Shown in pieces: positions 3,078 through 23,245 of a stretch of 43,621 bases of DNA. Each line of letters starts with the position of its first letter. The stretch's first letter is position 1. The stretch comes from a virus, in the IMG/VR virus record IMGVR_UViG_3300030333_002853, positions 1 through 43,621 of that record. One strand, written 5' to 3'. Under the pieces are notes generated by a model. The model was not told the origin of the DNA. It saw nothing but the letters and a program-made list of their open reading frames with translations, and searched no databases. The position numbers and the translations under genes are program-made.

Positions 3078-3617
3078 ATGGCTGAGTCATTCTCAAATTC
3101 AATTACAAAAACAGTCGGAGTTGTTACTTCCTATACTGGTAGTACAATAGGTGCTGCTGGAACTTCTATTACAGTAACAGCAAACACTGGTATTGGAGTT
3201 TCTGACTTAGTTGTTAATAGCAACTTTACTGGTGGTACTAAGGTTACACAAATAGACGGAACAACAATTTATACTGACATTGCTTCAACGAATGAATCGT
3301 CAGCATCAAGTCAGGTTGTTAAGTTCCTTGGTGTTACTACAGTATATACTTCTGCTGCTGCAACCAAGAGTATCGTTATTGGTGGTACATTAACTAATAA
3401 TGAAAACGGTGCTATTAAAGTCTTTGTGGAAACAAGGGACTCATCTGCTGGTGTAGATGCGAATCTTGTATATAATGCTCCTATACCAGAGGGTTCATCT
3501 ATGATTATAAGTGATGCTGGTAAAACTGTACTCGAAGCAACTGATGAGCTTAGAGTCTATTGTGACACCAAGAATGGTGTAGATGTCAACTTCAGTATCT
3601 TATCGGGTGTTAGCTAA
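3078..3617 (+). CDS. Virion structural protein, small beta-rich fibre component
   Basis: A 179 aa protein rich in Thr, Ser, Val and Gly with no signal peptide or membrane segment. The first 80 residues have alternating beta patterns (GTSITVTANTGIGVSDLVV); the last 90 (TKSIVIGGTLTNNENGAIKV) resemble the small 112-136 aa proteins of the downstream cassettes, which also carry a stretch ending in V.P..S..I. The next gene starts in the stop codon (TAATG), so the two are probably coupled in translation. A late-expressed fibre component is inferred from context; no enzyme motif is visible. Confidence 0.8.
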   Translation: MAESFSNSITKTVGVVTSYTGSTIGAAGTSITVTANTGIGVSDLVVNSNFTGGTKVTQIDGTTIYTDIASTNESSASSQVVKFLGVTTVYTSAAATKSIVIGGTLTNNENGAIKVFVETRDSSAGVDANLVYNAPIPEGSSMIISDAGKTVLEATDELRVYCDTKNGVDVNFSILSGVS

Positions 3618-4549
3618 TGGCTGGGTATATTGGTAACAATCCATCAGATAGTTCTGTACGGATTGCCAGACAAATTTATACCACAAGCGGAATCACTAGT
3701 GATTTCACGTTTACTTCTGGGTACGACCCAGGATATATTGACATATATGTAAACGGCGAAAGGCAGACCGAAGGTACTAACTTCACTGCTAGTGATGGCG
3801 AAACATTTACCATTATGAATGGTGGTGTATCGACTGGATCTACTGTAGAAGCAGCAGCATATAAAACATTTAACGTTGCTACTGTAACTCTTGGTGAAGT
3901 AACTGACGTTGATGATTTAACTGTTAGTGGTTCTATTAATGCTGCTAGTGTTGTTGCAGGTTCTGCTGTAACATCTAATCTTTCTGGTATTAATGTATCA
4001 GGTGCTGTTACTGCTACTAGTTTTAGTGGTGATGGTTCAGGCTTGACAGGTGTTGCATCTACTGATAATATTACTACATCAACTCCTGCTGAATTCCAGC
4101 AGATTAATGTTAGTGGTATTGCCACAATTGGAGTAACAACGATATCAACTTCTGTTGCTGTTGGTGCTGCTGTTACAGTAACTGCTACTGCTATAACAAT
4201 TGACCCTGCGGTTACTTCTACAATTAATGGAGATGTTAATTTCCAAGGTGGTAACTATAATATTTCAAGGTCTAGAGCAAATAGTTCTATAGATTTTGAT
4301 GATAATGCTAAAGCACGATTTGGTTCGTCACAAGACCTAGAAATTTATCATAATGCTACGAACAGCGTTATTAATAACGCAGGTACCGGTGATTTATTAT
4401 TAACAGTTGGTGGTTCAACTATAGAAGAGGTTAATGCTTCTGGTATTAATGTATCAGGTATTGTAACTGCAACTAGTTTTGCTGGTGACGGTTCTGCATT
4501 AAGTGGAGTCGGTGGTGAGTTTAATATCACTTCTGGTCTATTCCTTTAA
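3617..4549 (+). CDS. Tail-fibre stalk protein, MAGYIGNNP type
   Basis: A 310 aa protein whose N-terminal about 90 residues (YIGNNPSD..., DIYVNGERQTEGTNF, ASDGETFTI) match the N-terminus of the gene at 20526, a likely attachment domain. It continues with stalk repeats carrying SFSGDGSGLTGV and SFAGDGSALSGV signatures, separated by a segment with FGSSQDLEIYHNATN, a motif common in cyanophage fibre proteins. It overlaps the previous gene by one base (TAATG) and lacks its own late promoter. It opens the first stalk / small protein / Gly-rich cassette. Confidence 0.85.
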   Translation: MAGYIGNNPSDSSVRIARQIYTTSGITSDFTFTSGYDPGYIDIYVNGERQTEGTNFTASDGETFTIMNGGVSTGSTVEAAAYKTFNVATVTLGEVTDVDDLTVSGSINAASVVAGSAVTSNLSGINVSGAVTATSFSGDGSGLTGVASTDNITTSTPAEFQQINVSGIATIGVTTISTSVAVGAAVTVTATAITIDPAVTSTINGDVNFQGGNYNISRSRANSSIDFDDNAKARFGSSQDLEIYHNATNSVINNAGTGDLLLTVGGSTIEEVNASGINVSGIVTATSFAGDGSALSGVGGEFNITSGLFL

Positions 4550-4555
4550 TAAATA
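4548..4555 (+). promoter_or_regulatory. T4-type late promoter AATAAATA
   Basis: NATAAATA motif overlapping the stop of the stalk gene, 21 bp before the ATG at 4577. Confidence 0.7.
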
Positions 4556-4576
4556 ACATTACAAAAGACAGTAAAA

Positions 4577-4984
4577 ATGACTCTCAAGAAGACACAATTA
4601 ATTGGAATTACCTCTGTGGTGGGTCTTAGTACAGTTGGCATTTTGACTGTCGGCGTTACTAATACTCAAGGTGGAGTAGGAATTGCTTCCACTTGCTACG
4701 TAAGAAGTGTAGTAATGCATAACACAGGATTGGGAACAGCGAGAGTTTCCTTATACATGAATGAATCTGCTGTACAGAACGCAGTTGCGACTGGAGTTAC
4801 AGCGAACAAGTTTTTAACAATTGACCTTGCAGCGAATGAGACCTCATTCTTTGAAGTTAATTACCCATTGGTAATGTCTAATTGGGGTGATACACTTTCT
4901 GTTGCGATAGATGCTCCTGATGCAGGAGGAACAGGAATTGGATCAATGGTCAACTTTATTGTGAATGGCGATACTGACGTATAA
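4577..4984 (+). CDS. Small cassette protein (135 aa) upstream of a Gly-rich adhesin
   Basis: A beta-rich 135 aa protein: VRSVVMHNTGLGTARVSLYMN, then FFEVNYPLVMSNWGDTLSV and a C-terminal FIVNGDTDV. It is clearly paralogous to the 112 aa protein at 21773 (VKSVLAHAGTG, FFEPSYPLVLDTTGDQISV, FIVTGDVES) and more distantly to those at 9401 and 16566. All four lie directly upstream of a Gly-rich gene. The fold looks like one beta sandwich or jelly roll. A cap, connector or chaperone for the Gly-rich adhesin is a context-based guess. Confidence 0.85.
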   Translation: MTLKKTQLIGITSVVGLSTVGILTVGVTNTQGGVGIASTCYVRSVVMHNTGLGTARVSLYMNESAVQNAVATGVTANKFLTIDLAANETSFFEVNYPLVMSNWGDTLSVAIDAPDAGGTGIGSMVNFIVNGDTDV

Positions 4985-4999
4985 TAGGAGGATTTAATC

Positions 5000-5980
5000 G
5001 TGGGTATTAAATCCAATAATCCAGCAGCATATTTTTTTAATATGTTTGGCAATACTGGACATGATGCTGGTAATCCAGCTCCTCATCCTTTTGGTGCAAG
5101 TGGTGGTATAACGGCGACTTACACTGATCCTACTGGATCTTATAAATCTCATACTTTTACTGGACCAGGTAATTTTATAGTTACTGGAGACCCTGCAACT
5201 GTTGATTATATTGTTGTTGGTGGTGGCGGTGCTGGTGGCAATTCTGTTTATGGTAGTTCTAATGGCGGCGGTGGCGGTGCCGGAGGAGTTTTAACTGGAA
5301 CTAGTTTCACCGTTACTGCACAAACTTATTCCATAACAGTTGGAGAAGGTGGTACGGGTAACCATCCAACAGGTACTGATGGTGGTAGTCCATCCGTATT
5401 TTCTACCGTAACAGCACAAGGTGGTGGTGGAGGTGGTTATAATAAAAACGCTACAGGTAATCCAGATCAAAATGGTGGTTCTGGAGGTGGTAGCTCATCC
5501 CATAACCCACCAGCACCAAATGGTTGGGGTTATGGAAATAGAGAAGTAGGTACAACTACACCAGCTCCATCTCAAGGAAATGATGGAGCATCTGGTTCAT
5601 CTAGTCCTCCAGCTTGGGGTTCTGGTGGAGGCGGTGGTGCTGGTGGTGTAGGTGGTGCTGCTTCTGTTAGTGTAGCAGGAGCAGGAGGAATAGGAGTAAA
5701 TAATGGTTATAGATATGGTCCTCCTACATCTGATCATCCAACTGCTGGTGATATTGGTTATGGTGGAGGTGGAGGTGGAACCAATTCAGGTGCTGGAACT
5801 CCAGGAGATCCACCAACGGCAGCGGTCCCCTATGGTGGTGGAGTAGGTAATTATAATGCTGATGGTAGTGATGGTGTAGATGGAAAAGGTGGCGGTGGCG
5901 GTGGAGGAAGTGGATATCCAACTGGCAATAATGGTGGATCAGGTGGTGATGGTATAGTTATAATTCGTTATGCTGTCTAA
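5000..5980 (+). CDS. Gly-rich adhesin-like protein, single unit, GTG start
   Basis: 326 aa. The GTG start at 5000 is set by AGGAGG at 4986-4991 with 8 bp spacing. The N-terminus MGIKSNNPAAYFFNMFGNTG matches that of the next gene. The unit follows the pattern seen in all Gly-rich genes here: YKSHTFTGPGNFIVT strand, DYIVVGGGGAGG, a long run of Gly clusters with Pro/Asn loops, and a closing GIVIIRY strand. This pattern belongs to a Gly-rich domain common in phage tail proteins. By analogy with the Gly-rich gp38 adhesin of Salmonella phage S16, it may form a polyglycine-II bundle at a fibre tip; this is inference. Confidence 0.85.
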   Translation: MGIKSNNPAAYFFNMFGNTGHDAGNPAPHPFGASGGITATYTDPTGSYKSHTFTGPGNFIVTGDPATVDYIVVGGGGAGGNSVYGSSNGGGGGAGGVLTGTSFTVTAQTYSITVGEGGTGNHPTGTDGGSPSVFSTVTAQGGGGGGYNKNATGNPDQNGGSGGGSSSHNPPAPNGWGYGNREVGTTTPAPSQGNDGASGSSSPPAWGSGGGGGAGGVGGAASVSVAGAGGIGVNNGYRYGPPTSDHPTAGDIGYGGGGGGTNSGAGTPGDPPTAAVPYGGGVGNYNADGSDGVDGKGGGGGGGSGYPTGNNGGSGGDGIVIIRYAV

Positions 5981-5983
5981 ATA
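5976..5983 (+). promoter_or_regulatory. Probable late promoter TCTAAATA
   Basis: CTAAATA variant of the late promoter overlapping the stop codon of the previous gene, 18 bp before ATG 6002. It matches the CCTAAATA class used elsewhere in this window but is weaker. Confidence 0.45.
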
Positions 5984-6001
5984 CATAAAAATGTTATAAC
6001 A

Positions 6002-8011
6002 ATGGGCATTCGTTCACAAAATAACCCTGCAGCATCTTATCTTGATAAGTGGTTAGCTACTGGTGTGGATGCTGGCATTGGAGATCAATATGGTCCTCCT
6101 ACTGGACATACTGCAACTGGTGGTATAACAGCTGATTATGTTGATCCGACAGGAGTAGTTTATAGATCTCATTCTTTTAAAGAATCAGGAACTTTTGAAA
6201 TAACTGCACTTTCACCCAGTGAACCTGCACACGTAGATGTCCTCGTGATTGGAGGAGGTGGAGGTGCTGGTAGTCAAATGCCTGGTTCTTCTCATGGAGG
6301 AGGTGGAGGTGGTGCCGGTGGTTTCCTTGAAACTCCTACTCATCCAGTTGCTGCAACTTCTTATCCCGTAGTTATTGGTGCTGGTGGTGCTGGATCCCAC
6401 AATCATCCTGATACTGCTCCCAGTCAAGGAGGAGTTGATACTACAGCATTTGGTCTGACTGCCGATGGTGGTGGTTTAGGTGGTGGTTCTGGTGCCAACC
6501 CTCCTGGTGGTAGTGGTGCATCAGGTGGTGGTGGAGGAATGGATACTGGTGAAGCTGGAACCACAGATCAACCTACACAAGGATATCCAGGTGGTGATGG
6601 TAATTGGAATAGTCCAGGGCCTGCAACAGGTGGTGCTGGCGGTGGTGGTGGTGCCGGTGCTGCTGGTTTAGCTGGTGGTATAGGTGGTACAAGAGCTGGT
6701 GGAGATGGTGGAGATGGAAAACAAAATTCATATAGAACAGGTGTAGCAGAATATTATGCTGGTGGAGGCGGTGGCGCAACTTATAATGCTCCTCCTGGTG
6801 CTGGCCAAGGCGGTCAAGGTGGTGGTGGAGATGGAGTTAATGATGGAGGAAACGGTCCTACTACTAAGTATCAATGGGGTAATCCTGGTGAGATGGGTAG
6901 TGGCGGCGGAGGCGGTGGTGGAGCTTCTGAAGGATTTGGTGGTAGAGGTGGTTCTGGAAGAGTAATAGTTAGATATCCAATCGGACAAATTCAAGCAGCT
7001 CCAGTTGCAAGTGGTGGAATAGTTTCTTATACTCCTACAAAAACTGTTCATACTTTCCAATCTTCAGGAACATTTACTGTAACTGATGGACCTCTTACTT
7101 GCGCTTTTCTAATCGTTGCTGGCGGTGGTGGTGGTTGCGGATCAGTTGTTTCTAGTGATGGTACTGCTGGTGGTGGTGCTGGTGGATTACTTACCAGTGA
7201 AACAAATCCTGTTAGTACTCTTTCAGAAAAAGCATTTGCAACAGGTGCTTATACAATGACGGTTGGTGCCGGTGGTGCTGCTCAAGGATATATGGGTGCC
7301 GTCTCTTATGGTCCCACATCTGCTGCAGAGACTTGGAGAGCAAAAAGTGGAGGAGATTCCCAAATGGGGCCTCCAACATTTGGTCCTGTGACTGAAATTG
7401 TTGCTGCTGGTGGAGGTGGTGGAACTCTAGGTGGTGCTCCAGGTATGCCAGGTGGTTCTGCTGGTGGTTCATCAGGTGGTGGTGGTGCTGGACCTGGTGG
7501 TGAAGGTAGTAAATATAATCCACAATCACCATACAACCCACAAGATGATGCTCCTAATCAAGGTAATGATAGTGGTCAAGGATCTGCTCCTCCTATAGCA
7601 AACTATGGTTCAGGTGGTGGCGGTGGATTTACTGGTGCTGGTGATCCTGGTGGAGACGGCGGCGGTGGAGACGGTGGTGCTGGTATAAATCTTTCTATAT
7701 CAGGAACTTCTACTGGATATGCCGGTGGTGGTGGTGGAGGTCGTGTTTCTCCTGCATCAACACGTAGTCCTATTGGACCTGCTGGTGCCGCAACTCATGG
7801 TGGTGGTGCTGGTGCTGGTGGAGTCGCACCGTATGTAAATTATGCTGGTACGTCTGGAACTATGAATACCGGCGGTGGAGGCGGTGGTGCTTCTGGTACT
7901 ACTGGTGGTGGACCTGATCCAGTAGTTCATCCAACCAATCAACTACAAGATAATAATATTGGCGGTGGTAATGGTGGATCTGGTGTTATTATCATTTCGT
8001 ACCCAACCTAA
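6002..8011 (+). CDS. Gly-rich adhesin-like protein, two tandem units
   Basis: 669 aa. The N-terminus (MGIRSQNNPAASYLDKWLAT) is paralogous to the preceding gene, suggesting tandem duplication. Unit 1 spans about residues 1-327 (YRSHSFKESGTFEI, HVDVLVIGGGGGAG, closing GRVIVRYP). Unit 2 spans about 330-669 (HTFQSSGTFTV, FLIVAGGGGGCG, closing GVIIISYPT). Both consist mostly of Gly runs broken by Pro/Asn/Ser loops, the likely variable ligand-binding surface. It has no signal or membrane segment. It is late-expressed and probably virion-associated. Confidence 0.85.
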   Translation: MGIRSQNNPAASYLDKWLATGVDAGIGDQYGPPTGHTATGGITADYVDPTGVVYRSHSFKESGTFEITALSPSEPAHVDVLVIGGGGGAGSQMPGSSHGGGGGGAGGFLETPTHPVAATSYPVVIGAGGAGSHNHPDTAPSQGGVDTTAFGLTADGGGLGGGSGANPPGGSGASGGGGGMDTGEAGTTDQPTQGYPGGDGNWNSPGPATGGAGGGGGAGAAGLAGGIGGTRAGGDGGDGKQNSYRTGVAEYYAGGGGGATYNAPPGAGQGGQGGGGDGVNDGGNGPTTKYQWGNPGEMGSGGGGGGGASEGFGGRGGSGRVIVRYPIGQIQAAPVASGGIVSYTPTKTVHTFQSSGTFTVTDGPLTCAFLIVAGGGGGCGSVVSSDGTAGGGAGGLLTSETNPVSTLSEKAFATGAYTMTVGAGGAAQGYMGAVSYGPTSAAETWRAKSGGDSQMGPPTFGPVTEIVAAGGGGGTLGGAPGMPGGSAGGSSGGGGAGPGGEGSKYNPQSPYNPQDDAPNQGNDSGQGSAPPIANYGSGGGGGFTGAGDPGGDGGGGDGGAGINLSISGTSTGYAGGGGGGRVSPASTRSPIGPAGAATHGGGAGAGGVAPYVNYAGTSGTMNTGGGGGGASGTTGGGPDPVVHPTNQLQDNNIGGGNGGSGVIIISYPT

Positions 8012-8024
8012 ATAAACCTAAATA
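8007..8024 (+). promoter_or_regulatory. Tandem late promoters CCTAAATA x2
   Basis: Two copies of CCTAAATAAA, exactly 10 bp apart (8007-8014 and 8017-8024); the first overlaps the stop codon of the Gly-rich gene. They lie 31 bp upstream of ATG 8055. Confidence 0.65.
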
Positions 8025-8054
8025 AAAGTAAACCATTACGAGAAATAAAAAGCG

Positions 8055-8555: not shown

Positions 8556-9374
8556 ATGTCAAGAGCAAGAGACTTAGCCGGTTTTTCAACCGCCACACTT
8601 GGAACCAATGATCTGAATGCAGGAATTGTAACTGCATCAGCTTATTATGGTGACGGTTCTCAGTTGGTTGGTGTTGGTGGAACTTGGATTGCTACTGCTG
8701 CTGGCATTCATACGACTAAAAATGTTGGTATAGGAACAACTAATCCTATTGGTGCTGCAGATTCAAATAATACTACTGTAGTTAATGCGGGTGTTGTTAC
8801 TGCCAACTATTATTATGGTGATGGTTCTAAACTAACTAACCTCCCTGCTGGATTAGGAACTGCTGTTTCTGCTAGTGGTGATGGATCTAAAATCTATTAT
8901 ACAGATAGAGTTTTAGATGTAGGTGCAGACCTTTCAATTGATGTACCTGCAACTGCTACTGTTGCATATACACAGTATCCTGAGATTGCTGTATCATCAA
9001 GTTATGATTTAACAATTGCAGATGGTGATGATCTTGTTGTTGATATTTTAGGTATTGGTACAACTGGTGCTCCTCAAACTCTTGCAGGTGGTGGTGGTAG
9101 AATACGTGCCGATAACTTTGTATCTAAAAATGGATACAATGCTCCAACATTTGCTAATGGTGTTACTGTTTCTACGGCTGCAACTGCTGGTATAGGAACT
9201 ATAACAACTTCAGTAGTTGTTGGTTCTGCCGTAACTGCTAACTCTGATGGTATTATAGTTGGTGGAGCAGTGACTGCTACAAGTTTGGTATATGGTAGTA
9301 CTGATGTCTCTACTGAACTGGCAACCAAAGCCACGACTGGCAAGGCAATTGCTATGGCAATGGTATTTGGATAA
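8556..9374 (+). CDS. Tail-fibre stalk protein, MSRARDLAGFST type
   Basis: 272 aa. After MSRARDLAGFSTATLG come stalk repeats: GIVTASAYYGDGSQLVGV, then GVVTANYYYGDGSKLTNL. A beta segment follows (DLSIDVPATATVAY ... DDLVVDILGIG) that resembles the C-terminus of the stalk gene at 20526. The C-terminal part is again stalk-like and ends GKAIAMAMVFG, much like the end of the 134 aa stalk at 16132 (GKAVGLAAFLG). It opens the second cassette, ahead of a small protein and a two-unit Gly-rich protein. A trimeric fibre shaft is inferred. Confidence 0.85.
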   Translation: MSRARDLAGFSTATLGTNDLNAGIVTASAYYGDGSQLVGVGGTWIATAAGIHTTKNVGIGTTNPIGAADSNNTTVVNAGVVTANYYYGDGSKLTNLPAGLGTAVSASGDGSKIYYTDRVLDVGADLSIDVPATATVAYTQYPEIAVSSSYDLTIADGDDLVVDILGIGTTGAPQTLAGGGGRIRADNFVSKNGYNAPTFANGVTVSTAATAGIGTITTSVVVGSAVTANSDGIIVGGAVTATSLVYGSTDVSTELATKATTGKAIAMAMVFG

Positions 9375-9400: not shown

Positions 9401-9811
9401 ATGGCAGCCCCAAATATAGTCAGTGTAGCAACCATTACTGGTGTTACTACCGCCATTGCCGGTGTGAGCACTGCAGGTGCTTTGGAAAGTGGTAAGTATG
9501 TAGGTGTAACAACTGTTGTTATCAATGCTGCTTCAAGTGGAAAGGTAATAAAGATCAATACTTTATCTGCAGCAGCAATTGGAGATACAACTGGTGCAAC
9601 GGTTTATATTTACGATATAGCAGCAACTCATATTAGTGCAGGTGCCACAGTTTCAGTTGGTACAACAGTAACTGTTCCTGTCAACTCTTTAGTTTCAATA
9701 ATAGATAAAAATAATTCAATATACTTAGAAGAAAATAAACAAATAGGTATTATAGGGCAATCTAACGCAGGACACTTAGATGTAGTCTGTGCTTATGAAG
9801 AAATTAGTTAG
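9401..9811 (+). CDS. Small cassette protein (136 aa), MAAPNI type
   Basis: A 136 aa beta-rich protein starting MAAPNIVSVATITG. Its middle and end (VVINAASSGKVIKINTL; NSIYLEENKQIGIIG; LDVVCAYEEIS) align by eye with the 122 aa protein at 16566 (LLANAASSNKLLKINSI; SPIYLEEGHSIRGG; LEVLICYDELDD). It is the second member of the small-protein family, each placed between a stalk gene and a Gly-rich gene. Its function is unknown; a structural connector or adhesin partner is plausible. It is followed by AGGAGG for the next gene. Confidence 0.85.
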   Translation: MAAPNIVSVATITGVTTAIAGVSTAGALESGKYVGVTTVVINAASSGKVIKINTLSAAAIGDTTGATVYIYDIAATHISAGATVSVGTTVTVPVNSLVSIIDKNNSIYLEENKQIGIIGQSNAGHLDVVCAYEEIS

Positions 9812-9823: not shown

Positions 9824-11845
9824 ATGGGATTTATAGGAAAGAATAGAGGTAAAGCAATTTCAACTGGAGGTGGCGGCGGCTCTTTTAGTAGAGCAGATGT
9901 ATCATGGTTAGGTATTAATAGAACTCTTATTGGTGATCCTGGTGGTTTTAATGGTCATGTAGCAACAGGTGGTGTTGTTAATGATTATACTACTCCTACA
10001 GGAAAGGTCTATAGATCTCATACTTTTACATCTTCAGGAGTTTTTGAAGTAACAGAAATTGGTACTTATGATTCTGAAGTAGAATATTTGGTTGTTGCCG
10101 GAGGCGGTGGTGCTGGCGGAACATCTGGTGGTGGTGGTTTATATCATGGAGGTGGTGGTGCCGGTGGTTGTAGAACTAGTCTTGAAGGACACCCTGCTGC
10201 ATCTCCTACGAATTTTACAGTCGGTGTAGCTTCTTACACAATAACTGTTGGTGCTGGTGGTGCTGGTGGTGGTCAACCAGGTAATGAAAATGGATTTGAT
10301 GGAACTGATTCTGCGTTAGTTAATCCAACAACTGCTCCTGCAACTATTACTTCTACTGGTGGTGGAGGTGGTGGCCACCTTTATTCTGCTGGTAATAATG
10401 GTGGATCTGGTGGTGGCGGTGGATCAGGTAATCCACAATATGCTGGTGGTGAAGGTAATAATCCTCCAGTTAGTCCTCCACAAGGTAATGATGGTGGTGC
10501 AGGAAACTCACCTCCTCAATTCGGTGGCGGCGGAGGCGGCTGGGGTGCTGCAGGAAGTTCTAGTGATGCCAGTGGTGGTGCTGGTTTATCTTGTTTTATT
10601 GCAGGACCTCCTACTAATTCTCCGATAGGAACTCCATCTGGTCCTTCACCTGGAAGTGGTGGTGGATGGTTTGGTGGTGGTGGTGCTGGAGTTAGTCCTA
10701 CTGGTAATGCATCTGGTGGTGCTGGTGGTGGTGCCAATGAAGGATCCCCAACAGCATTGAACATGGGATTAAATGGAACACCTGGTACTGGTGGTGGGGG
10801 TGGTACTGCTCCAGGACCAACGGCTCAAAGAGGTGGTGCTGGTGGTAGCGGAATAGTAGCAATTAGATATCAAATAGCAGATACAGATACAAAGACAGCA
10901 AAGGCAACTGGTGGTGCAATAAGTTTTTATAATGGTAAGACCATCCATGCATTCACTAATTCAGGAACGTTAGTTACGTCTGGTGAGGCAATTCCTTCTG
11001 CAGAAGTCTTTATGGTTGCTGGTGGAGGCGGTGGTGGATTTGATGCTGCTGGTGGTGGAGGTGCTGGTGGTGTTAAATACAGACCTGATACTCCTTTAGA
11101 TGCAAGTACGACTTATACAATAACTATTGGTGGTGGCGGCGTTTCATCTGTTGCCCAAGATACTAAAGGATCTGATGGTAGTTCTACCGTCTTTGATGGT
11201 CCTCCTACAAGTAATCCTGGTATTGAAGTAAATGGCGGTGGTGGAGGTGGATCAAGAACTAGTAGTCCTGGTGAAGCAGGTGGCTCTGGTGGTGGCGGTG
11301 GTCGTCAAAATGGTACTGCTGGAGAGGCTAGTGGTAACCCAACTGAAACTGGATGGACTAATTATGGAAATGATGGTGGTGATTCCGGTAATAATTATGG
11401 TACTGGTGGAGGTGGTGCAGGTTCTCAGGGTGAAGACAATCCATCATATGATCCTATAACAGGTGTAGGTGGTGGTGGTGGTATTGGAATCCAAGCTCCT
11501 GCTACGTTCCGCAACCCTGAAGCTAGAATAGGTGGTTCTATAGACGGATCTTCAGATATTGCATGGGGATTTGCTGGAGGAGGTGGTGGTGGTGCTAATG
11601 CCGCTAACCCTGGTCCTCGTGGTGGCGGCGGTGGTCAAGGTGGAGGATGGAATAATCCAACCTCAACTATGTCTAGTGATGGACCTCATTATGGTGGTGG
11701 TGCTGGTGCTTATGATCCTAATGTATCTGGAACTAATGGTGAAAGATCAACCGGTGGAGGCGGCGGCGGTGGTAACAATAGTGGACCATACGCTAAAGGA
11801 TTTGAAGGTGGTTCTGGTATAGTCCTTGTAGCATATCCAACCTAA
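9824..11845 (+). CDS. Gly-rich adhesin-like protein, two tandem units
   Basis: 673 aa, preceded by GGAGG. Unit 1 spans about residues 1-350 (YRSHTFTSSGVFEV, EYLVVAGGGGAGG, closing GIVAIRYQI). Unit 2 spans about 360-673 (HAFTNSGTLVTSG, VFMVAGGGGGGF, closing GIVLVAYPT). The overall plan equals that of the gene at 6002, but the N-terminus differs (MGFIGKNRGKAIST), so the start domain is exchangeable. It contains many Gly clusters interrupted by Pro/Asn/Ser loops. It is a late virion adhesin candidate in the second cassette. Confidence 0.85.
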   Translation: MGFIGKNRGKAISTGGGGGSFSRADVSWLGINRTLIGDPGGFNGHVATGGVVNDYTTPTGKVYRSHTFTSSGVFEVTEIGTYDSEVEYLVVAGGGGAGGTSGGGGLYHGGGGAGGCRTSLEGHPAASPTNFTVGVASYTITVGAGGAGGGQPGNENGFDGTDSALVNPTTAPATITSTGGGGGGHLYSAGNNGGSGGGGGSGNPQYAGGEGNNPPVSPPQGNDGGAGNSPPQFGGGGGGWGAAGSSSDASGGAGLSCFIAGPPTNSPIGTPSGPSPGSGGGWFGGGGAGVSPTGNASGGAGGGANEGSPTALNMGLNGTPGTGGGGGTAPGPTAQRGGAGGSGIVAIRYQIADTDTKTAKATGGAISFYNGKTIHAFTNSGTLVTSGEAIPSAEVFMVAGGGGGGFDAAGGGGAGGVKYRPDTPLDASTTYTITIGGGGVSSVAQDTKGSDGSSTVFDGPPTSNPGIEVNGGGGGGSRTSSPGEAGGSGGGGGRQNGTAGEASGNPTETGWTNYGNDGGDSGNNYGTGGGGAGSQGEDNPSYDPITGVGGGGGIGIQAPATFRNPEARIGGSIDGSSDIAWGFAGGGGGGANAANPGPRGGGGGQGGGWNNPTSTMSSDGPHYGGGAGAYDPNVSGTNGERSTGGGGGGGNNSGPYAKGFEGGSGIVLVAYPT

Positions 11846-11865: not shown

Positions 11866-12636
11866 ATGTCAAGAGTAAAGGTAAATGAAATAACCAATAA
11901 GGTAGCGACTGGGCCAGTTGATTTCCCAGACGGTATCACTGGTGTTGCCTTGACTGTTACGGGTAACGTAACTGTTGGTGGTACGATTATTTCCGAGGAC
12001 ACAACTAACGTTGATAGTGTTGGTTGGGTTACTGCTCGTAGTGGATTAAACGTAGGACCTCCTGCTACAGGTATTGGTGCTACTGTTCATTCCAATGGTA
12101 ATGCAGTATTTGCTGGTATTTTAACTGCTTCAAGTTTTGAAGGTGATGGATCTGCTTTAACTGGTGTTATATCTGGTGTTGATATTAGGTCTGGTGGTTC
12201 ATTTTTAGGTGCGGGTGTTACTGATATTAACTGGGCCTCAGGTGCTACAGTAACTGCATCTGGTGCTGGTGCTACTGTTACAATTGCTGCTGGTATTACT
12301 ACTACGTCAGCATATTCTCAAAGTGGTATGATTACCTTGAACTTGGGTTCAGGTAATGCACATGAAATTACGTTGGCAGCAGGTATATCTACATTCACAG
12401 TAACAGGTGGTACAGTAGGAGAATCACACTCACTAATTGTTACTCAACCATCATCAGGTATTACAACAGTAGGATTTGCAACATATTTCTTATGGCCTTC
12501 GGGTTCTCCACCAAATATGTCAAAGGCAGCAGCATCGTCTGAAATTGATATGGTGACATTTGTTGTTAAACAAGAAACCCAAACAGGAACAGGAGTTACT
12601 CAACTACTTGCCAGCGCAGGACTTGATTATCAATAG
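11866..12636 (+). CDS. Tail-fibre stalk protein paired with a giant lectin-like tip
   Basis: 256 aa, starting MSRVKVNEITNKVATGPVDF. It has the stalk module GGTIISEDTTNVDSVGWVTA / SSFEGDGSALTGV, then SGGSFLGAGVTDINWASGAT and a C-terminal domain with TVGFATYFLWPSG. That C-terminal half closely matches the stalk at 25087 (SGGSFLGAGITAINWDSGAT; TVGFSSYFLWPGG). Both genes lie directly upstream of a giant lectin-like gene, so this C-terminal domain may be the docking or folding module for that tip type (inference). Confidence 0.85.
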   Translation: MSRVKVNEITNKVATGPVDFPDGITGVALTVTGNVTVGGTIISEDTTNVDSVGWVTARSGLNVGPPATGIGATVHSNGNAVFAGILTASSFEGDGSALTGVISGVDIRSGGSFLGAGVTDINWASGATVTASGAGATVTIAAGITTTSAYSQSGMITLNLGSGNAHEITLAAGISTFTVTGGTVGESHSLIVTQPSSGITTVGFATYFLWPSGSPPNMSKAAASSEIDMVTFVVKQETQTGTGVTQLLASAGLDYQ

Positions 12637-15600: not shown

Positions 15601-16105
15601 TGAAGCAATTACTAAATCTTCAATTTGGAATGATACTAGACCAGATAACCATGTTTTAACTATTGGTACTGATAGTGATTGTAATATTGATGGTGAGGAT
15701 TATATTGCTTGGATATGGGCTAATGTGGAAGGAGTTCAGCATTTTGGTGGATATCAAGGAAATGGAAGTGCAACTGGTCCTATGGTATGGACAGGATTTA
15801 AGCCGGCTATGGTTATAATTAAGAGAACAACAAGTGGATCTACTAACGATTTTGTTTTATTTGATAACAAAAGAGATTTAGTTGATCCTTGTCATCATAG
15901 ATTAATTCCTAATACTAATGGAGCAGAAAATGATACCTCTTCAACATCCGTAAATAGAATTGATTTCCTTTCTACTGGATTTAAGATATGGAATAGTGGT
16001 GATGCTTGGAATAATAGTGGTAGTGATTACATTTATATGGCATGGGCTGCTAATCCATTTGCAAGTTTGTATGGAGTCTCTTCTACAACACGAGATGGTG
16101 CTTGA
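12650..16105 (+). CDS. Giant multi-domain tail adhesin (LamG-like, SPRY-like)
   Basis: 1151 aa. Domains by eye: LamG/ConA-like beta sandwich (about 25-205; RRNFTVSWWSKTN, MKFYINGSQV); a beta module (about 262-370; ends VDGCILKDG); SPRY-like domain (about 465-625; TGKWYWECLATT, YLGIGVYY, GDLIMVAVNMDEGTIF); and a C-terminal region (about 650-1151) with repeated GFxPDLIVGK / W.TDSVRG and HGLGKKPAFWLIRN motifs known from a large group of phage tail proteins. An extra beta module at about 770-907 interrupts this C-terminal region. Carbohydrate binding is suggested by the folds. It follows its stalk gene by 13 bp. Confidence 0.85.
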   Translation: MSILATKTPLSLNQNQDHLVKGSTSFSVADSSYISKTFSSAGNRRNFTVSWWSKTNRVSGGGQSQLLTAGASGSELFQLSLEGNAKINFECTAGGSTSARFYTQQTFRDPSAWTHFLLYINTAHTTNTERMKFYINGSQVTDYDTDIVAVTYPTENMKFYWMNSQEHNVGKRTYSSTYSDFEIAELYCIDGQPCDPTAFGFTDPKSGIWVPKKFDVNDICTLNDGTTWSSQLSGTAQGSETHAEMFDDIINPADGGAADVGYCMPDYGQTITWTLPTGGITAKTDRGIWMWMRREESGSSSAATVTANGVDITSTVTSQVSANSQAWVKIKDKGEVLTSFTFNNTGADAWNFFAYRVGAVSVDGCILKDGLGSAATAGWGTNGFYLPMDGTGFNSSTLGNATNLIEDQSPNKSNWTANNTPIWSLDSPSGCRNSINNNVGVTTTNFPGSYCTMSGYDYYDGLTLSHGNLKVTSTSGDRHVRATHRMPSTGKWYWECLATTVASNSYLGIGVYYRTGSLTAAAIATAQGRYVTASGLKGGKGGATSSYGGGFDDGDLIMVAVNMDEGTIFTGKNGAWFDSADPVTNANPMYSDLRYAYDDMDWYPCCNNWQDGNTSEFNFGQKPFAYAPPKDFLPLCSQNMPVPGSVSPDKYFSANIWTGNETAGRIITTGFNPDLIVGKARNDTGNWYWTDSVRGSNKFVYSNDMSEETTTANIINIDDNTPDGFKLGSSGVINGTSSYNYVSYSWKAGGSKNTFNVDGVGHSAASDVGMDSAALNSTTINASQVWSGLFTLASGSFDQAIANAFNGYLSEGTRARTSGNQVLITMTLSTPVTVSSSVKVIGETGYESTCTITVGGTTHTSSVGDSHTFYVSGSLTQMTLTSNSASGRTYMEGMFIDGKELVDSDITYNRPSISATGASVGTNQGFSIVKYTGTGSVGSIAHGLGKKPAFWLIRNLDNTGGSLDFPLYHDWLGPQKMMRFNSNVEAITKSSIWNDTRPDNHVLTIGTDSDCNIDGEDYIAWIWANVEGVQHFGGYQGNGSATGPMVWTGFKPAMVIIKRTTSGSTNDFVLFDNKRDLVDPCHHRLIPNTNGAENDTSSTSVNRIDFLSTGFKIWNSGDAWNNSGSDYIYMAWAANPFASLYGVSSTTRDGA

Positions 16106-16131: not shown

Positions 16132-16536
16132 ATGTCTAGGGTACGATCCGACAAATTTACTAACAGAGCTGCTACGGGTCCTTGTTCCTTTACTCATGGC
16201 ATTCATGCAATTGAAGCCACTGGTGTTGGAATAGGTGTTTCTCTGGGATATGGTGGTTTAGTTGCAGTTGGTGCAACTATTAGTGGTAATCTTTCTGTTG
16301 GTGGAACTCTTACATATGAAGATGTTCAGAATGTAGATTCTACTGGACTTATTACTGCTCGTAGTGGTATTAAAATAGGACAACCAACTGGTGTTGGTGC
16401 TACTTTTAATCCTGTTGGAGATTTGGTAGTTGCTGGTATTATTACTGCAGCGAGTTATTATGGTGATGCTAGTACTATGGATAATGCAGGTATTAGTGCT
16501 GGTAAGGCAGTAGGTCTTGCTGCTTTCTTAGGATGA
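16132..16536 (+). CDS. Short tail-fibre stalk protein
   Basis: 134 aa, starting MSRVRSDKFTNRAATGPCSF, the same N-terminal type as the stalk at 11866. It carries one stalk module (GGTLTYEDVQNVDSTGLITA, then GQPTGVGATFNPVGDLVVAG and ITAASYYGD) that is nearly the same as a module in the gene at 21243, and ends GKAVGLAAFLG like the stalk at 8556. It is the shortest stalk of the array, looking like a minimal version with internal modules missing. It opens the third small protein / Gly-rich cassette. Confidence 0.85.
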   Translation: MSRVRSDKFTNRAATGPCSFTHGIHAIEATGVGIGVSLGYGGLVAVGATISGNLSVGGTLTYEDVQNVDSTGLITARSGIKIGQPTGVGATFNPVGDLVVAGIITAASYYGDASTMDNAGISAGKAVGLAAFLG

Positions 16537-16565: not shown

Positions 16566-16934
16566 ATGGCTGCACCAAATATACTAAGTGCTACATCAAT
16601 ATATGGAAAGCAAGTTGGTGCTGCACTTGACACCACAACTACTACTTCGTTGCTGGCAAATGCTGCTTCATCAAATAAACTTTTAAAGATTAATTCTATA
16701 ATTGTAGCAAACGTAGATGGTTCTTCTTCTGCTGATGCAACAGTGTCTTGGTATGATGGAAGTACAGATTATCATCTAGCAAAGACTGTGGCAGTTCCTG
16801 CTGATTCTACTTTGGTTGTAGTAGGTAAAGATTCACCAATATACTTAGAGGAAGGACATTCTATAAGAGGTGGTGCTAGTGCTAACAGTGACTTAGAAGT
16901 TTTAATTTGTTACGACGAATTAGATGACGCTTAA
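16566..16934 (+). CDS. Small cassette protein (122 aa), MAAPNI type
   Basis: A 122 aa paralogue of the protein at 9401 (shared MAAPNI start, NAASSxKxxKIN, IYLEE, C-terminal CYDEL/CAYEE). It is beta-rich with no membrane segment. It is followed by TAATAGGAGGAT, almost the same ribosome-binding context as before the Gly-rich gene at 5000, showing that the small protein / Gly-rich pair moves or duplicates as a unit. The molecular role is unknown; it is a late structural protein by context. Confidence 0.85.
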   Translation: MAAPNILSATSIYGKQVGAALDTTTTTSLLANAASSNKLLKINSIIVANVDGSSSADATVSWYDGSTDYHLAKTVAVPADSTLVVVGKDSPIYLEEGHSIRGGASANSDLEVLICYDELDDA

Positions 16935-16949: not shown

Positions 16950-17978
16950 ATGGCACAAAGATTCTTAGGCGGTATATTTGGTAATACAGTACCATCAACA
17001 GCAGATCAACCTGATATTAGTGGTGTGTATGATTTGAATGGGCAATATTATATGTCCAAAGAAGGTGGTTGGGAAGCAACTTTCTCTGCCACTGGTGGAA
17101 CTACAGTAGATTATAATAGTAAAAGAATTCATATATTTACTTCATCTGGTAGTTTTGTTGCAACTGGATTGCCAGGAGATTGTGAATATGTTGTAATTGG
17201 TGGTGGCGGCTCAGGTGGTCGTGCCAATGGTGGTGCTGGTGGTGGTGCTGGTGGATATCGTACTGATACAGTTCCAGGTGTATCCGCTGGAACTTATGCT
17301 GTAACTATTGGAGCAGGTGGTAATTATCCTGGACCAAATCCAAACCCAACCAATGGTAAAGTTGCTGGTTCTACTACTACTTTAGCATTTCCTTCTTCTA
17401 TCGCCGCTGATGGTGGTGGAGGAGGTGCAGGTAGTGATATAAGTGACCCATTCTCTGCAGGTGGTGCTTCTCCTGGTAACGGTTCAGGTGGTGGCGGTGC
17501 AAGTACTGGAACCCATACTTCCAGTGGTGGAGGTAGTGGATCATATGGTAATAATGGCGGTCCAGGTTCAGGAAAACCAGGTCCAGGTTCATATAGACTT
17601 GGAGGTGGCGGCGGTGGTGCCGGTGGTTCTGGTGCTGCTGGAACTGGTGGAACCAGTGGAACAGGTGGAGATGGAGGTACAGGAGTTGAATTCCCCACAA
17701 CATTCCATGCTCCTGGATTACCTGTAGGTGATCCTGGTCCTAACGGTAGTGCATACTGGGCTGCTGGTGGCGGTGGCGGAGGAAGTCAAGAATCTGCTAC
17801 TGAAGTTGGTGAAGGTGGTGGACCTGGTGGTCCTTATGCTGGTGGTGGAGACGGTTCTGGTCCTGGTACAGGTGGTACAGATGGTGCAGCAAACTCTGGC
17901 GGTGGCGGCGGCGGTGCTGGTAGTAACGGATATGGTGGTGGCGGTCCTGGTTTAGTAATGATTGCTTATCCAATATAG
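16950..17978 (+). CDS. Gly-rich adhesin-like protein, single unit
   Basis: 342 aa, with AGGAGG upstream. The N-terminus (MAQRFLGGIFGNTVPSTADQ) is followed by IHIFTSSGSFVAT, EYVVIGGGGSGG, long Gly runs with Pro-rich loops (PGKPGPG type) and closing GLVMIAYPI. It is the last gene before the early-type oxygenase island. Many Gly-Pro and Pro-Gly steps make it a conceivable substrate for the prolyl-hydroxylase-like enzyme encoded just downstream (inference only). Confidence 0.85.
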   Translation: MAQRFLGGIFGNTVPSTADQPDISGVYDLNGQYYMSKEGGWEATFSATGGTTVDYNSKRIHIFTSSGSFVATGLPGDCEYVVIGGGGSGGRANGGAGGGAGGYRTDTVPGVSAGTYAVTIGAGGNYPGPNPNPTNGKVAGSTTTLAFPSSIAADGGGGGAGSDISDPFSAGGASPGNGSGGGGASTGTHTSSGGGSGSYGNNGGPGSGKPGPGSYRLGGGGGGAGGSGAAGTGGTSGTGGDGGTGVEFPTTFHAPGLPVGDPGPNGSAYWAAGGGGGGSQESATEVGEGGGPGGPYAGGGDGSGPGTGGTDGAANSGGGGGGAGSNGYGGGGPGLVMIAYPI

Positions 17979-18009: not shown

Positions 18010-18032
18010 ATCACTGAATACATTATTCGAGT

Positions 18033-18653: not shown

Positions 18654-18662
18654 GAGGTTATT

Positions 18663-20499: not shown

Positions 20500-20525
20500 C
20501 TAAAATCCTCTAGGCCTACGTCAGT

Positions 20526-21242
20526 ATGGGATATCTTGGTAACGAAAATACTATAACGGGGACGCAGAATAGCAAGCGTATTGTTGTTGAGGCTACTCCT
20601 AACCAAACAATATCCACCGTAACTGGTGGATATACAATTGGTCAGTTAGATGTATATCGCAATGGTGTAAAACTTGTTGATGCTGAGGACTATACTGCAA
20701 GAGATGGTTCCAGTGTTACTTTTATTAATGCACTGTCAGTAAGTGATGATATAGAGTTTGTAGTCTTTGAGAACTTCAACGTTGCTAATGCAATGGGAGT
20801 TAGCGGAGATCAAACTCTTGCTGGTAGTTTAGATGTAACTGGTATTGTAACTGCTCAAAGTGGTTTCAATATTGGTATTCAATCAGGTGGACAAGTTATT
20901 AATGCTGGTGCAGCAATAACTACCATTAATTTTGTTGGTACTGGTAATACATTAATTTATAATGCTGGTACTAACAGTGTTGATGTTGCCATTGCTGGTG
21001 GAGGTGGAGGCGGTGTTGGTACTGCCATTAATTATGCTGATGGAGAGAAATCACCATTTACTTTTATTGATGCATACCAGACTGTTGATGCTGATTTGAA
21101 CTTAGATGCTACTAATGCAGGTGCATCTACATCCTTTGTTGTGTCTGTTGTTCCAAATGTTGAGGTTTCTAGTGGAGTTGCTGTCACAGTTGGATCCGGT
21201 AAGACTATGGTAATTGATGTACTACAGATCGGAGAACTCTAA
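20526..21242 (+). CDS. Tail-fibre stalk protein, MGYLGNEN type
   Basis: 238 aa. The N-terminal about 90 residues (IGQLDVYRNGVKLVDAEDYT, ARDGSSVTFI, VFENFNVANA) match the N-terminal domain of the 310 aa stalk at 3617 (DIYVNGERQTEGTNF, ASDGETFTI, FNVATV). A short stalk section (GSLDVTGIVTAQSGFNIG) and a C-terminal beta domain (ADLNLDATNAGASTSF ... KTMVIDVLQIGEL) follow. Here the attachment and stalk halves seem divided over two genes, since the next gene (TAA directly followed by ATG) carries the GDGSGLTGV stalk end. Confidence 0.85.
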   Translation: MGYLGNENTITGTQNSKRIVVEATPNQTISTVTGGYTIGQLDVYRNGVKLVDAEDYTARDGSSVTFINALSVSDDIEFVVFENFNVANAMGVSGDQTLAGSLDVTGIVTAQSGFNIGIQSGGQVINAGAAITTINFVGTGNTLIYNAGTNSVDVAIAGGGGGGVGTAINYADGEKSPFTFIDAYQTVDADLNLDATNAGASTSFVVSVVPNVEVSSGVAVTVGSGKTMVIDVLQIGEL

Positions 21243-21746
21243 ATGGCAACCTTACGAGTAACTAATTTAAGAGGACGTACTAGCAACGTAGCACCTGATT
21301 TACCTGATGGTGCTAATATTACAGGTTTTGCCACTGCAACAAATGTAAATGTTTCGGCTGGTGTTACTGCTGGTATAGGAACCTTTACAACTTCAGTGGT
21401 AGTTGGTTCTGCTGTTACCGTTAATGATCAAGGTGTAATTGCTGCTGGTATTATAACTGGTAGACAATTTAGTGGTGATATAATTGGTGTTGCTGCTACC
21501 TTTAGTGGCGATGTTTCAGTTGGCGGTACTTTAACCTATGAAGATGTAGCAAGAGTAGATGCTACTGGACTTAGTACCTTTAGAGAAGGTATAAATGTAG
21601 GATCACCTACTGGTGTTGGTGGAACATTCAACCCTCAAGGAGATATTTCTGCTGGTATTGTAACGGCAACTAGTTTCTCTGGTGATGGATCAGGTTTAAC
21701 AGGAGTTAGCTCCTGGGATTCTTATGACTCTTGGTTATACAATTAA
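21243..21746 (+). CDS. Tail-fibre stalk protein
   Basis: 167 aa, starting MATLRVTNLRGRTSNVAPDL directly after the stop codon of the previous gene (zero spacing). It contains GTFTTSVVVGSAVTVND, GGTLTYEDVARVDATGL and GSPTGVGGTFNPQGDI, the same module order as the stalk at 16132, and ends SFSGDGSGLTGV plus WDSYDSWLYN. It belongs to the fourth type A cassette. It is probably a trimeric stalk that docks to the small protein and Gly-rich partner downstream. Confidence 0.85.
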   Translation: MATLRVTNLRGRTSNVAPDLPDGANITGFATATNVNVSAGVTAGIGTFTTSVVVGSAVTVNDQGVIAAGIITGRQFSGDIIGVAATFSGDVSVGGTLTYEDVARVDATGLSTFREGINVGSPTGVGGTFNPQGDISAGIVTATSFSGDGSGLTGVSSWDSYDSWLYN

Positions 21747-21748
21747 TT

Positions 21749-21756
21749 CCTAAATA
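21749..21756 (+). promoter_or_regulatory. Late promoter CCTAAATA
   Basis: Followed by ACTAAAAAAAGAAATC, 17 bp before ATG 21773. Confidence 0.65.
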
Positions 21757-21772
21757 ACTAAAAAAAGAAATC

Positions 21773-22111
21773 ATGGCACTGACAAGAGGAAAATTATCAA
21801 ACGTGGTGGTGGTAGGTGCTGCCTCGACTGCTGGTATAGTCACATGTGCCAGTAGTAAGAAAGTATATGTAAAATCAGTCCTTGCTCATGCAGGAACTGG
21901 TGCTTCAACATCTGCAGATATATATTTTATTCCTAACGCAGGAACAGCAACTTCTGACACACGCATAGCGAGAATGGACGTGTTAGCAGGAGAAACAGTA
22001 TTTTTTGAACCTTCATATCCACTAGTATTAGATACTACAGGGGACCAGATCAGTGTTGGTGCTGGTGCATCTACCTGTAATTTCATAGTAACTGGCGATG
22101 TGGAGAGTTAA
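21773..22111 (+). CDS. Small cassette protein (112 aa)
   Basis: A 112 aa paralogue of the 135 aa protein at 4577: VKSVLAHAGTG, SADIYFIPNAG, then FFEPSYPLVLDTTGDQISV and FIVTGDVES. It is beta-rich and predicted to form a single compact domain. It has its own late promoter and is followed within 3 bp by a Gly-rich gene, although here without the strong AGGAGG seen at the other copies. The role is unknown and a structural role is inferred. Confidence 0.85.
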   Translation: MALTRGKLSNVVVVGAASTAGIVTCASSKKVYVKSVLAHAGTGASTSADIYFIPNAGTATSDTRIARMDVLAGETVFFEPSYPLVLDTTGDQISVGAGASTCNFIVTGDVES

Positions 22112-22114
22112 GTT

Positions 22115-23245
22115 ATGGCTCCTCTTAAGACAACTTTAGGTAGAAGTGTAGGAAAACTTATAGAGTCTTTTCGTGGTAGGGATGCTATAGGTACTCTCAA
22201 ACTTAATAGTACTATAGTAACAAACAGAAAGGTAACAGAGGCCAGGTTTGATGTGAGTGGGGGAACGGAAATAACTTCTGGTGATTATAAGTATCATGTT
22301 TTCACTTCGACTGGTTCTCTTACATTAACACAAAATGGATCTGGTCTTTTCAGTACTCTTAATCCAGATAATTCAGGAAATTTTGATTATCTAGTTATTG
22401 CTGGTGGTGGCGGTGGAGGTGCTACTCGTGCTGATGGAAATGGTGGACGTGGTGGCGGTGGTGCTGGTGGTGTAAGATCTAATGATCCTAATTATCCTCG
22501 TGCTACTCCTGATACTGCGTTAACTGCTCCCGCTGTTGGTACCCCCTATACTTATACTGTAACTGTCGGTAGTGGTGGTGCTGCTGCTAACCTTCCTGGT
22601 GGTCCTCCTCCAACACATGGTGGTAATGGTCAAAATAGTTCAATAATAGGTCCCGACCATCCTGGTTCTGGTGGAGCCGGTGGTGTAGTTGCAACTGGAG
22701 GTGGTGGTGGTACTGTATCACCTGGACAAGCTTCTGGTGAGGGTGGTTCAGGTGGTGGTGGTGCATATGGTACTCTTGTAGAAGGAGAAGCAGTTGCATC
22801 TCCTGACGGTTTAACTCCTGATGCTCAAGGTTATGAGGGTAATGTAGGACAAGGTGCTGGTGGTGGCGGCGGTGGATCTGGTGGTACTTCTTCTCCACTG
22901 TCAAACAATGGTGGTAATGGTGATCAATTCCCAGAGTATCCTGGTCCCGTTATTAGTCCTGCCGTTTCTCCCCTCTCACCAGAATGGCTTACTTCTGTAG
23001 GTCCTACCGGTTACTACGCTGGTGGTGGTGCTGGTGGCGGTGGATATTCATCGAGTACCGGTGGCGGCGGTGGAGACGGCGGCGGCGGTAGTGGTTCTGA
23101 TTATGGTAGTAATAATGCTCCTGCTGATCCTGGTGTTAATTACACTGGTTCAGGTGGTGGTGGTGGATCAGGTCCTGCTGGTGGTAATTTTAATGCTGGT
23201 GATGGTGGAAATGGTATTGTGATAGTTAGATACAAATATCAATGA
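22115..23245 (+). CDS. Gly-rich adhesin-like protein, single unit
   Basis: 376 aa. A distinct basic N-terminus (MAPLKTTLGRSVGKLIESFR) precedes the common unit: YHVFTSTGSLTLTQNG, DYLVIAGGGGGGA, long Gly runs with Pro/Ser loops, closing GIVIVRYKY. It is the fourth Gly-rich locus. Different N-terminal heads fused to one conserved unit suggest modular exchange between loci. Late expression comes from the promoter upstream of the small protein. Confidence 0.85.
   Translation: MAPLKTTLGRSVGKLIESFRGRDAIGTLKLNSTIVTNRKVTEARFDVSGGTEITSGDYKYHVFTSTGSLTLTQNGSGLFSTLNPDNSGNFDYLVIAGGGGGGATRADGNGGRGGGGAGGVRSNDPNYPRATPDTALTAPAVGTPYTYTVTVGSGGAAANLPGGPPPTHGGNGQNSSIIGPDHPGSGGAGGVVATGGGGGTVSPGQASGEGGSGGGGAYGTLVEGEAVASPDGLTPDAQGYEGNVGQGAGGGGGGSGGTSSPLSNNGGNGDQFPEYPGPVISPAVSPLSPEWLTSVGPTGYYAGGGAGGGGYSSSTGGGGGDGGGGSGSDYGSNNAPADPGVNYTGSGGGGGSGPAGGNFNAGDGGNGIVIVRYKYQ

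Follow-up and report, generated by a model that had tools for sequence, protein, structure and literature searches.

The question that this locus raises is what a small protein encoded between a fibre stalk and a glycine-rich (Gly-rich) protein does. The window, i.e. the whole analysed stretch of 43,621 nucleotides (IMG/VR record IMGVR_UViG_3300030333_002853), contains a row of cassettes with the gene order stalk, small protein, Gly-rich protein. In the following, genes are named by their first position; all lie on the plus strand.

Fibre cassettes in the window

Cassette 1 comprises a stalk of 310 aa ending in ITSGLFL (3617..4549), a small protein of 135 aa (4577..4984; phrog_20100, E 5e-39; 67% identity to gp32 of Synechococcus phage Bellamy), a Gly-rich protein of 326 aa with one unit (5000..5980; Pfam Gly_rich_2, 1.8e-15; phrog_2295) and a second one of 669 aa with two units (6002..8011; Gly_rich_2 in two stretches; phrog_2295). 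The stalk of cassette 2 (8556..9374, 272 aa) ends in ATTGKAIAMAMVFG, its putative docking tail TGKAIAMAMVFG being encoded at 9336..9371; a small protein of 136 aa (9401..9811) and a Gly-rich protein of 673 aa (9824..11845; Gly_rich_2, 7.9e-26) follow. Cassette 3 has a stalk of 134 aa ending in SAGKAVGLAAFLG (16132..16536), a small protein of 122 aa (16566..16934) and a Gly-rich protein of 342 aa (16950..17978; phrog_2295, 2.4e-42). Two stalks open cassette 4, the first of 238 aa (20526..21242; Bellamy counterpart gp35) and the second of 167 aa, ending in SYDSWLYN (21243..21746), and are followed by a small protein of 112 aa (21773..22111; phrog_20100, 6.6e-24) and a Gly-rich protein of 376 aa (22115..23245; phrog_2295, 1.5e-40; Gly_rich_2, 4.7e-19).

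An earlier reading, made from the sequence only, had described these four cassettes as modular fibre units with different Gly-rich tips, which may together form a multi-receptor system. Its coordinates and lengths were all correct, and the modular arrangement is supported by our analysis. Its scope needs two corrections. First, a fifth small protein (3078..3617; phrog_26609, E 2.2e-65; type B family model, 32 bits) lies between two stalks, one ending in SIPSVGLVIALGG (2326..3051) and the other being stalk 3617. Second, a stalk is followed by its next protein without any small protein at least three more times: 11866..12636 directly precedes a non-Gly-rich DUF7483 protein (12650..16105; Pfam DUF7483, 8.8e-73), 23288..24166 precedes 24167-25048, and 25087..25938 precedes 25949-31600.

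Families and predicted fold of the small proteins

The two subfamilies proposed from the sequence are real on alignment. Proteins 4577 and 21773 (type A) share 35% identity (blastp 2e-13), and the phrog_20100 profile matches both over their full length. Proteins 9401 and 16566 (type B) share 34% identity (4e-10) and belong to one large family, whose model they match with 181 and 117 bits, respectively. This family is strongly conserved, with a mean column identity of 55% and invariant residues. The two types match each other at profile level only (hhalign P 9e-5, probability 59%), and phrog_26609, the type of 3078, is also matched by two members of the type B alignment. A lack of significant similarity among the small proteins, named in the sequence-only reading as what would overturn it, is not what we find: identities within families are 34–35%, and the families are linked by their profiles. 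Since viral contigs yielded one relative for 4577 and none for 21773, the case for type A rests on seven instances.

Searches against PHROGs returned only families of unknown function or labelled ‘virion structural protein’, and no known connector function. A PDB sequence search with the type B profile gave no significant match. Pfam matches of the small proteins (SRP54, PapC and others) were weak, below cut-off, and were disregarded, and S-CREM2 gp84, annotated ‘tail fibre attachment’, was ruled out as a homologue at 1.7 bits. Some relatives are annotated ‘putative lectin’, sugar binding being a matter of annotation only. One family member, S-CBWM1 gp15, has no fibre gene nearby. One protein encoded by S-SKS1 reads as a natural fusion of a stalk with two domains of the small type.

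AlphaFold predicts the small protein with confidence as an all-beta sandwich, and gave no folded model for the Gly-rich part. Fused models, built as read-through fusions, placed neither the tail nor the tip confidently against the small protein. Foldseek matches of the small protein included a fibre chain of Agrobacterium phage 7-7-1, weakly (E 5e-3), and Ena subunits were among the best fold matches; we claim no homology to the latter.

A conserved stalk tail is paired with the small gene

In stalks that precede type B small proteins, conservation centres on the final ~12 residues, TGKAIAMA[IM]VFG. It is 1.1–4.0 bits per position over the last 12 residues and mostly below 0.4 bits before them. 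In the window, 9401 is preceded by a type B tail and 16566 by a divergent form of it. Stalks of type A end in ...ITSxLF or ...DxWLY, and the stalk of the 3078 type in ...LGLVIALG. A search limited to open full texts found no phage paper on the tail motif.

Viral contigs were chosen solely by DNA encoding GKAIAMA. A type B small gene lay immediately 3′ of 112 of the 114 testable C-terminal tails, and the same held in bacterial assemblies for six out of six. Conversely, of the 126 ORFs lying immediately 5′ of a small gene, 72% had a tail-like end, compared with 8 of the 1409 other ORFs. The pairing of tail and small gene is thus near-obligate, and the window follows the same rule: stalks 11866, 23288 and 25087, which serve as internal controls, have no tail and no small protein. 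Tail and small protein also covary. Their similarities correlate with r 0.31 (partial value 0.32, permutation p 0.001), compared to r 0.02 for the neighbouring stalk body and the small protein.

The part downstream of the small gene is variable

All five Gly-rich proteins of the window match phrog_2295 (E 2e-84 to 1.5e-40); Pfam Gly_rich_2 scored above cut-off for 5000, 6002, 9824 and 22115, 16950 not being listed. A PDB sequence search with the Gly-rich profile gave no significant match to any solved structure. Among relatives, the gene 3′ of the small gene encodes a Gly-rich protein in 87 of 193 cases and a different tip or another stalk in the rest. A head of the GG[IV][IL]G type occurs in 43 of 115 genes directly after a small protein, as against 26 of 1139. 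The head of the next gene, taken generally, shows some correlation with the small protein (r 0.23). Gly-rich genes are in turn followed by a phrog_7759-like gene in 44 of 66 cases. In some phages such a gene, and not an obvious next fibre part, comes after the small gene.

The sequence-only reading had also taken a shared ribosome-binding context as a sign that small and Gly-rich genes are linked. The shared TAATAGGAGGAT at 4982 and 16932 consists only of a stop codon and a Shine-Dalgarno sequence, and with 22 occurrences of AGGAGG on this strand of the window the context is generic. Stop-codon readthrough from the small into the Gly-rich gene was considered and rejected: in the window all four junctions keep the reading frame (chance 1 in 81), but in relatives just 41 of 150 do.

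Cassettes in related cyanophages

Four cassettes also stand in a row in the corresponding region of Bellamy (Kyanoviridae), gp29–gp44. Three carry orthologues of the small proteins in the window, and a chance origin of the cassettes is thereby excluded. Identity between orthologous small proteins is 51–67%; in the comparison that included controls, it is 54–68% (shuffled control 22–24%), and the similarity of the tips is near the composition control. Bellamy lacks an ortholog of the 16566 cassette and has an additional A-type small protein (gp37), and no small protein precedes two of its Gly-rich proteins, gp51 and gp54. The Bellamy cassette proteins are annotated merely as hypothetical proteins or tail fibre.

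In S-SCSM1, gp26, gp27 and gp28 are a stalk, a distant relative of the small protein and the next fibre, respectively, and all three are recorded as virion proteins. Absence from virions, the other outcome that was to count against the sequence-only reading, is contradicted for this distant relative only. The small protein of S-SCSM1 lies between two stalks, as 3078 does between 2326 and 3617.

A candidate fibre joint and its alternatives

We consider it probable, at roughly 60%, that the small protein acts as a joint within the fibre, holding the docking tail of the stalk and carrying exchangeable tips. The stalk would end in a short hydrophobic docking tail specific to its class (type B, type A or 3078 type), and the beta-sandwich protein would bind this tail and seat the N-terminus of the next part, be it a Gly-rich tip, a tip of another kind or another stalk. 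With the tail read by the joint and a seat for the next part, stalks, joints and tips could therefore be recombined. Cassette 1 would then be a chain of two stalk-and-joint units that ends in tips, with cassettes 2–4 as shorter arms of the same design. The Gly-rich proteins are probably receptor-binding tips. Physical docking is inferred, as are the order of parts and the stoichiometry within the fibre, and the evidence for contact between tail and small protein is entirely genomic.

An assembly chaperone that acts on stalk or tip and does not stay in the mature fibre (compare T4 gp38 and Pam3 gp25) would also be small and encoded directly 3′ of a fibre gene, and the hydrophobic tail could be its binding signal. 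Pam3 gp25 is required for fibre folding and is not found in virions (PMC9608196), whereas S-SCSM1 gp27 is recorded in the virion alongside gp26 and gp28. Fibre chaperones such as Tfa and Pam3 gp25 combine a beta-sandwich with a C-terminal helical trimerisation domain; compared with the description of gp25, the modelled small protein lacks this domain. Together with the natural fusion in S-SKS1 and the phrog_7759-like gene after Gly-rich genes, a better chaperone candidate, this makes a chaperone unlikely.

Slightly less probable still is a lectin-like receptor-binding head of the stalk, with the next gene encoding a separate fibre. The ‘putative lectin’ annotations, the missing tip gene in some phages and the structural match to phage 7-7-1, whose long tail fibre ends in a triple jelly-roll (PMC12796354), would fit such a head. 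However, the strong conservation of the family is unlike that of receptor-binding heads, the small protein lies between two stalks in both S-SCSM1 and the window, and genes after it share a recurrent head motif.

The sequence-only reading had each small protein serve a partner Gly-rich tip. This fits the presence of a small protein in all four Gly-rich series of the window and, to some extent, the correlation with the next head. As an exclusive rule it is largely refuted, and we regard it as improbable: fewer than half of the small genes precede a Gly-rich gene, Bellamy gp51 and gp54 do without a small protein, the 3078 type precedes a stalk, and it is with the tail of the preceding stalk that the small protein is strictly paired. 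That tail and small gene are simply co-inherited neighbours without contact is compatible with the purely genomic nature of the evidence, but is very improbable, as it leaves unexplained both the natural fusion and the focus of conservation and covariation on the final 12 residues of stalks whose adjacent sequence varies freely.

Comparison with known fibre systems

In the long tail fibre of T4, gp35 connects successive segments (gp34-gp35-gp36-gp37). A fibre joint would resemble gp35 as a protein between successive fibre segments, and the gene order and virion records of S-SCSM1 are consistent with this. The small proteins differ from gp35 in being far smaller and in having several copies in each genome, and their PHROG matches revealed no sequence homology to it. 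As putative tips, the Gly-rich proteins would resemble the glycine-rich distal receptor-binding domains of T2/S16-type gp38 adhesins and of Pam3 gp24 (PMC9608196, PMC12892980), the latter combining a TNF-like with a Gly-rich domain (PMC9608196). The complex described for S16 is one of gp38 with the gp37 trimer itself (PMC12892980), whereas the window encodes a separate small protein between stalk and tip. The jelly-roll domain of 7-7-1 gp015 belongs to the stalk protein, at the end of a beta-helical stalk (PMC12796354). In F-ENA endospore fibres, short hydrophobic hook peptides dock on the trimeric fibre subunit (PMC11952670); those are N-terminal hooks of a homopolymer, while the putative docking tails are C-terminal and belong to a different protein.

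Implications for phage fibres

More tentatively, and with somewhat less than an even chance, the joint may be part of a general plug-and-socket standard, in which each class of tail is matched by a class of beta-sandwich joint in unrelated phages, stalks and tips are exchangeable between phages, and one virion carries several tips. The users of this standard would be cyanomyoviruses, pelagiphages and freshwater phages, along with phage-like stretches in bacterial assemblies.

Tip exchange is a known mode of phage fibre evolution, and how unrelated parts come to fit lacks a clear account. This fit would have a concrete explanation in a conserved tail of 12 residues that is matched by a small joint. 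A likely role would be assigned to a large small-protein family without a Pfam model, and the tail is an easily searched signature: in metagenomic phages, mostly devoid of fibre annotation, it points to both the joint and the fibre part that follows. If the model is true, the joint lets different tips mount on different shafts across many unrelated viruses.

Cassettes and small-protein families

The cassette gene coordinates proposed in the sequence-only reading agree exactly with open reading frames, and the series of stalk, small beta protein and Gly-rich protein genes is indeed present four times in the window (3617-23245). The two proposed subfamilies of small proteins were likewise recovered. 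Type A comprises 4577 and 21773 (bare numbers denote gene starts), both matching phrog_20100, and type B comprises 9401 and 16566, neither of which has a significant PHROG match. By blastp, the type A pair shares 35% identity (2e-13) and the type B pair 34% (4e-10), and a signal between the two types came from profile comparison only (P 9e-5, probability 59%). All five Gly-rich proteins of the window (5000, 6002, 9824, 16950 and 22115) match phrog_2295. A fifth small protein, missed earlier, lies at 3078-3617 between two stalks; it matches phrog_26609, as do two members of the type B alignment.

The nearest isolate found for this 43.6 kb virus record is the T4-like cyanophage Bellamy, which carries a corresponding series at gp29-gp44. 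Its orthologs of 4577, 9401 and 21773 show 67, 51 and 51% identity, respectively. These three orthologs show that the cassette arrangement is old and has been maintained. The small-to-Gly-rich junctions are in frame in 4/4 cases in the window (4577-23245) versus 41/150 in relatives, and the shared reading frame is therefore probably due to chance.

Stalk ends and the adjacent small gene

The type B stalks 8556 and 16132 end in ATTGKAIAMAMVFG and SAGKAVGLAAFLG, respectively, which resemble each other. Stalks preceding type A have ITSGLFL or SYDSWLYN at their C-terminus, and the stalk preceding 3078 terminates in SVGLVIALGG. Stalks 11866, 23288 and 25087, where the next gene is another large one and no small protein intervenes, also lack such endings.

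The type B family model was built from loci retrieved by protein similarity. As an independent set, we used viral contigs chosen solely by DNA encoding GKAIAMA. This motif was C-terminal in its reading frame in 116 cases, and a B-type small gene was immediately next in 112; two of the four exceptions had no room at the contig end, which leaves 112/114 testable cases. Six places were found in bacterial assemblies with a longer tail pattern, all with the small gene next (6/6). Among the similarity-fetched loci, a tail-like end was seen in 72% of the 126 ORFs that immediately precede a small gene versus 8/1409 other ORFs.

In aligned stalks, the last 12 residues carry 1.1–4.0 bits per position, and the preceding positions mostly below 0.4, rising just ahead of the tail, in an alignment whose register is set by the tail itself and thus somewhat favours it. 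Small-protein divergence correlated with that of the tail (r 0.31, or 0.32 as a partial value controlling for the stalk body; permutation p 0.001) but not with that of the neighbouring stalk sequence (r 0.02); the permutation leaves phylogeny in, with the stalk body as internal control for linkage. One exception to the stalk link is S-CBWM1 gp15 (6001-6396 of its locus), a B-type protein that is annotated as 'putative lectin' and has no fibre genes in its vicinity.

At the opposite end, the short stalks 11866, 16132, 21243, 23288 and 25087 share the start MSxLxVNxIxNR, a kind also found in Bellamy gp36, gp39, gp42, gp50 and gp53, and 8556 and Bellamy gp49 share a different start, M[ST]RARDLAxF. 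These starts are possibly the docking segments at that end of the stalk.

The part after the small protein

The proposal that each small protein is dedicated to a partner Gly-rich tip was not borne out. A Gly-rich gene follows the small protein in 87/193 cases; elsewhere the next gene encodes another kind of tip, a phrog_7759-like small protein or one more stalk. Moreover, two Gly-rich proteins of Bellamy, gp51 and gp54, lack a small protein. A short head motif of GG[IV][IL]G type, close to the N-terminus, was present in 43/115 genes directly after a small protein versus 26/1139 others, and because of this enrichment the next part may, judging from sequence, have its own docking segment.

When window proteins are globally aligned with their Bellamy counterparts, identity is 54–68% for the three paired small proteins (shuffled control 22–24%) and 42–49% for the tips (control 33–43%). 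A connector would be expected to show just this: a joint that is conserved and tips that diverge. Complete Gly-rich proteins from the tail-selected loci cluster at lengths of about 300, 600 and 880 aa, suggestive of chains with one, two or three units; a three-unit chain could form a pseudo-trimer.

Predicted structure and presence in the virion

Read-through fusions (small plus Gly-rich protein from the window; tail, small and Gly-rich protein from one fetched locus) were modelled with AlphaFold2. The small protein is predicted with confidence to be a beta-sandwich (block pLDDT mostly 92–98), and the fusions gave no confident placement of tail or tip. The first ~10 small-protein residues, including the invariant M1, P4 and N5, have a pLDDT of ~58; this N-terminal arm could itself be a docking segment.

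Foldseek against viral models matched many phage proteins of 100–130 aa, including an S-TIM5 virion structural protein, a 368-aa S-SKS1 protein that reads as a stalk followed by apparently two small-type domains, and the S-SCSM1 virion protein A0A6M2ZHP5 (TM-score 0.89 to the target). Matches in the PDB were weak and general (Ena endospore fibre subunits, nucleoplasmin-like cores, phage tail needle knobs, a pentameric phage capsid protein and a 7-7-1 tail fibre chain) and reveal neither partner nor ligand.

By length (112 aa), name and organism, A0A6M2ZHP5 was equated with S-SCSM1 gp27, a distant small-protein relative (20.8 bits with the type B model). It lies between the long tail fibre gp26, ending in ...VTPFILALGGN, and the next fibre, gp28. 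All three (3/3) have virion-protein records, and mass spectrometry has been used to determine the virion proteome of this phage (PMC9602691). Such a stalk, small protein and fibre series within the particle, here for a distant relative, is what a joint requires and argues against a chaperone that is released from the mature fibre.

Neighbouring genes and signals

Six exact copies of ATAACTARAAA lie on the plus strand shortly before the starts of stalk or small genes (8537, 11846, 16112, 21754, 23269 and 25068). With up to one mismatch there are 12 matches versus 4.4 expected, a number reached in 0/100 shuffles, and strings like it are found ahead of several fibre genes in Bellamy. The motif does not resemble a Shine-Dalgarno sequence and might be a late promoter or a signal for translation. 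A 147-aa phrog_7759 protein is encoded at 8055-8498; its relatives come immediately after a Gly-rich gene in 44/66 cases, and it is a candidate chaperone for Gly-rich tips. Genes for 2OG-Fe(II) oxygenases lie beside cassette 3 (18033-19951; Pfam matches for 18033 and 19397). Such a gene is found within 3 kb downstream in 16/53 Gly-rich cases versus 5/48 others, raising the question of whether these enzymes might hydroxylate the Gly/Pro-rich tips.

Proposed mechanism

Most likely, the stalk, presumably trimeric, would present its C-terminal tail, which would be bound by the small beta-sandwich, perhaps via its own conserved N-terminal arm, and the small protein would then seat the head of the next part. 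A structural precedent for such docking is the solved F-ENA spore fibre, in which short hydrophobic hook peptides dock on a trimeric fibre subunit (PMC11952670). T4 gp35 offers a functional parallel; sequence homology between it and the small proteins was not detected. Several tips would plausibly give access to several receptors. The small protein should best be read as a stalk-bound joint in use well beyond Gly-rich tips, a widespread kind of fibre connector with a sharp and testable signature.
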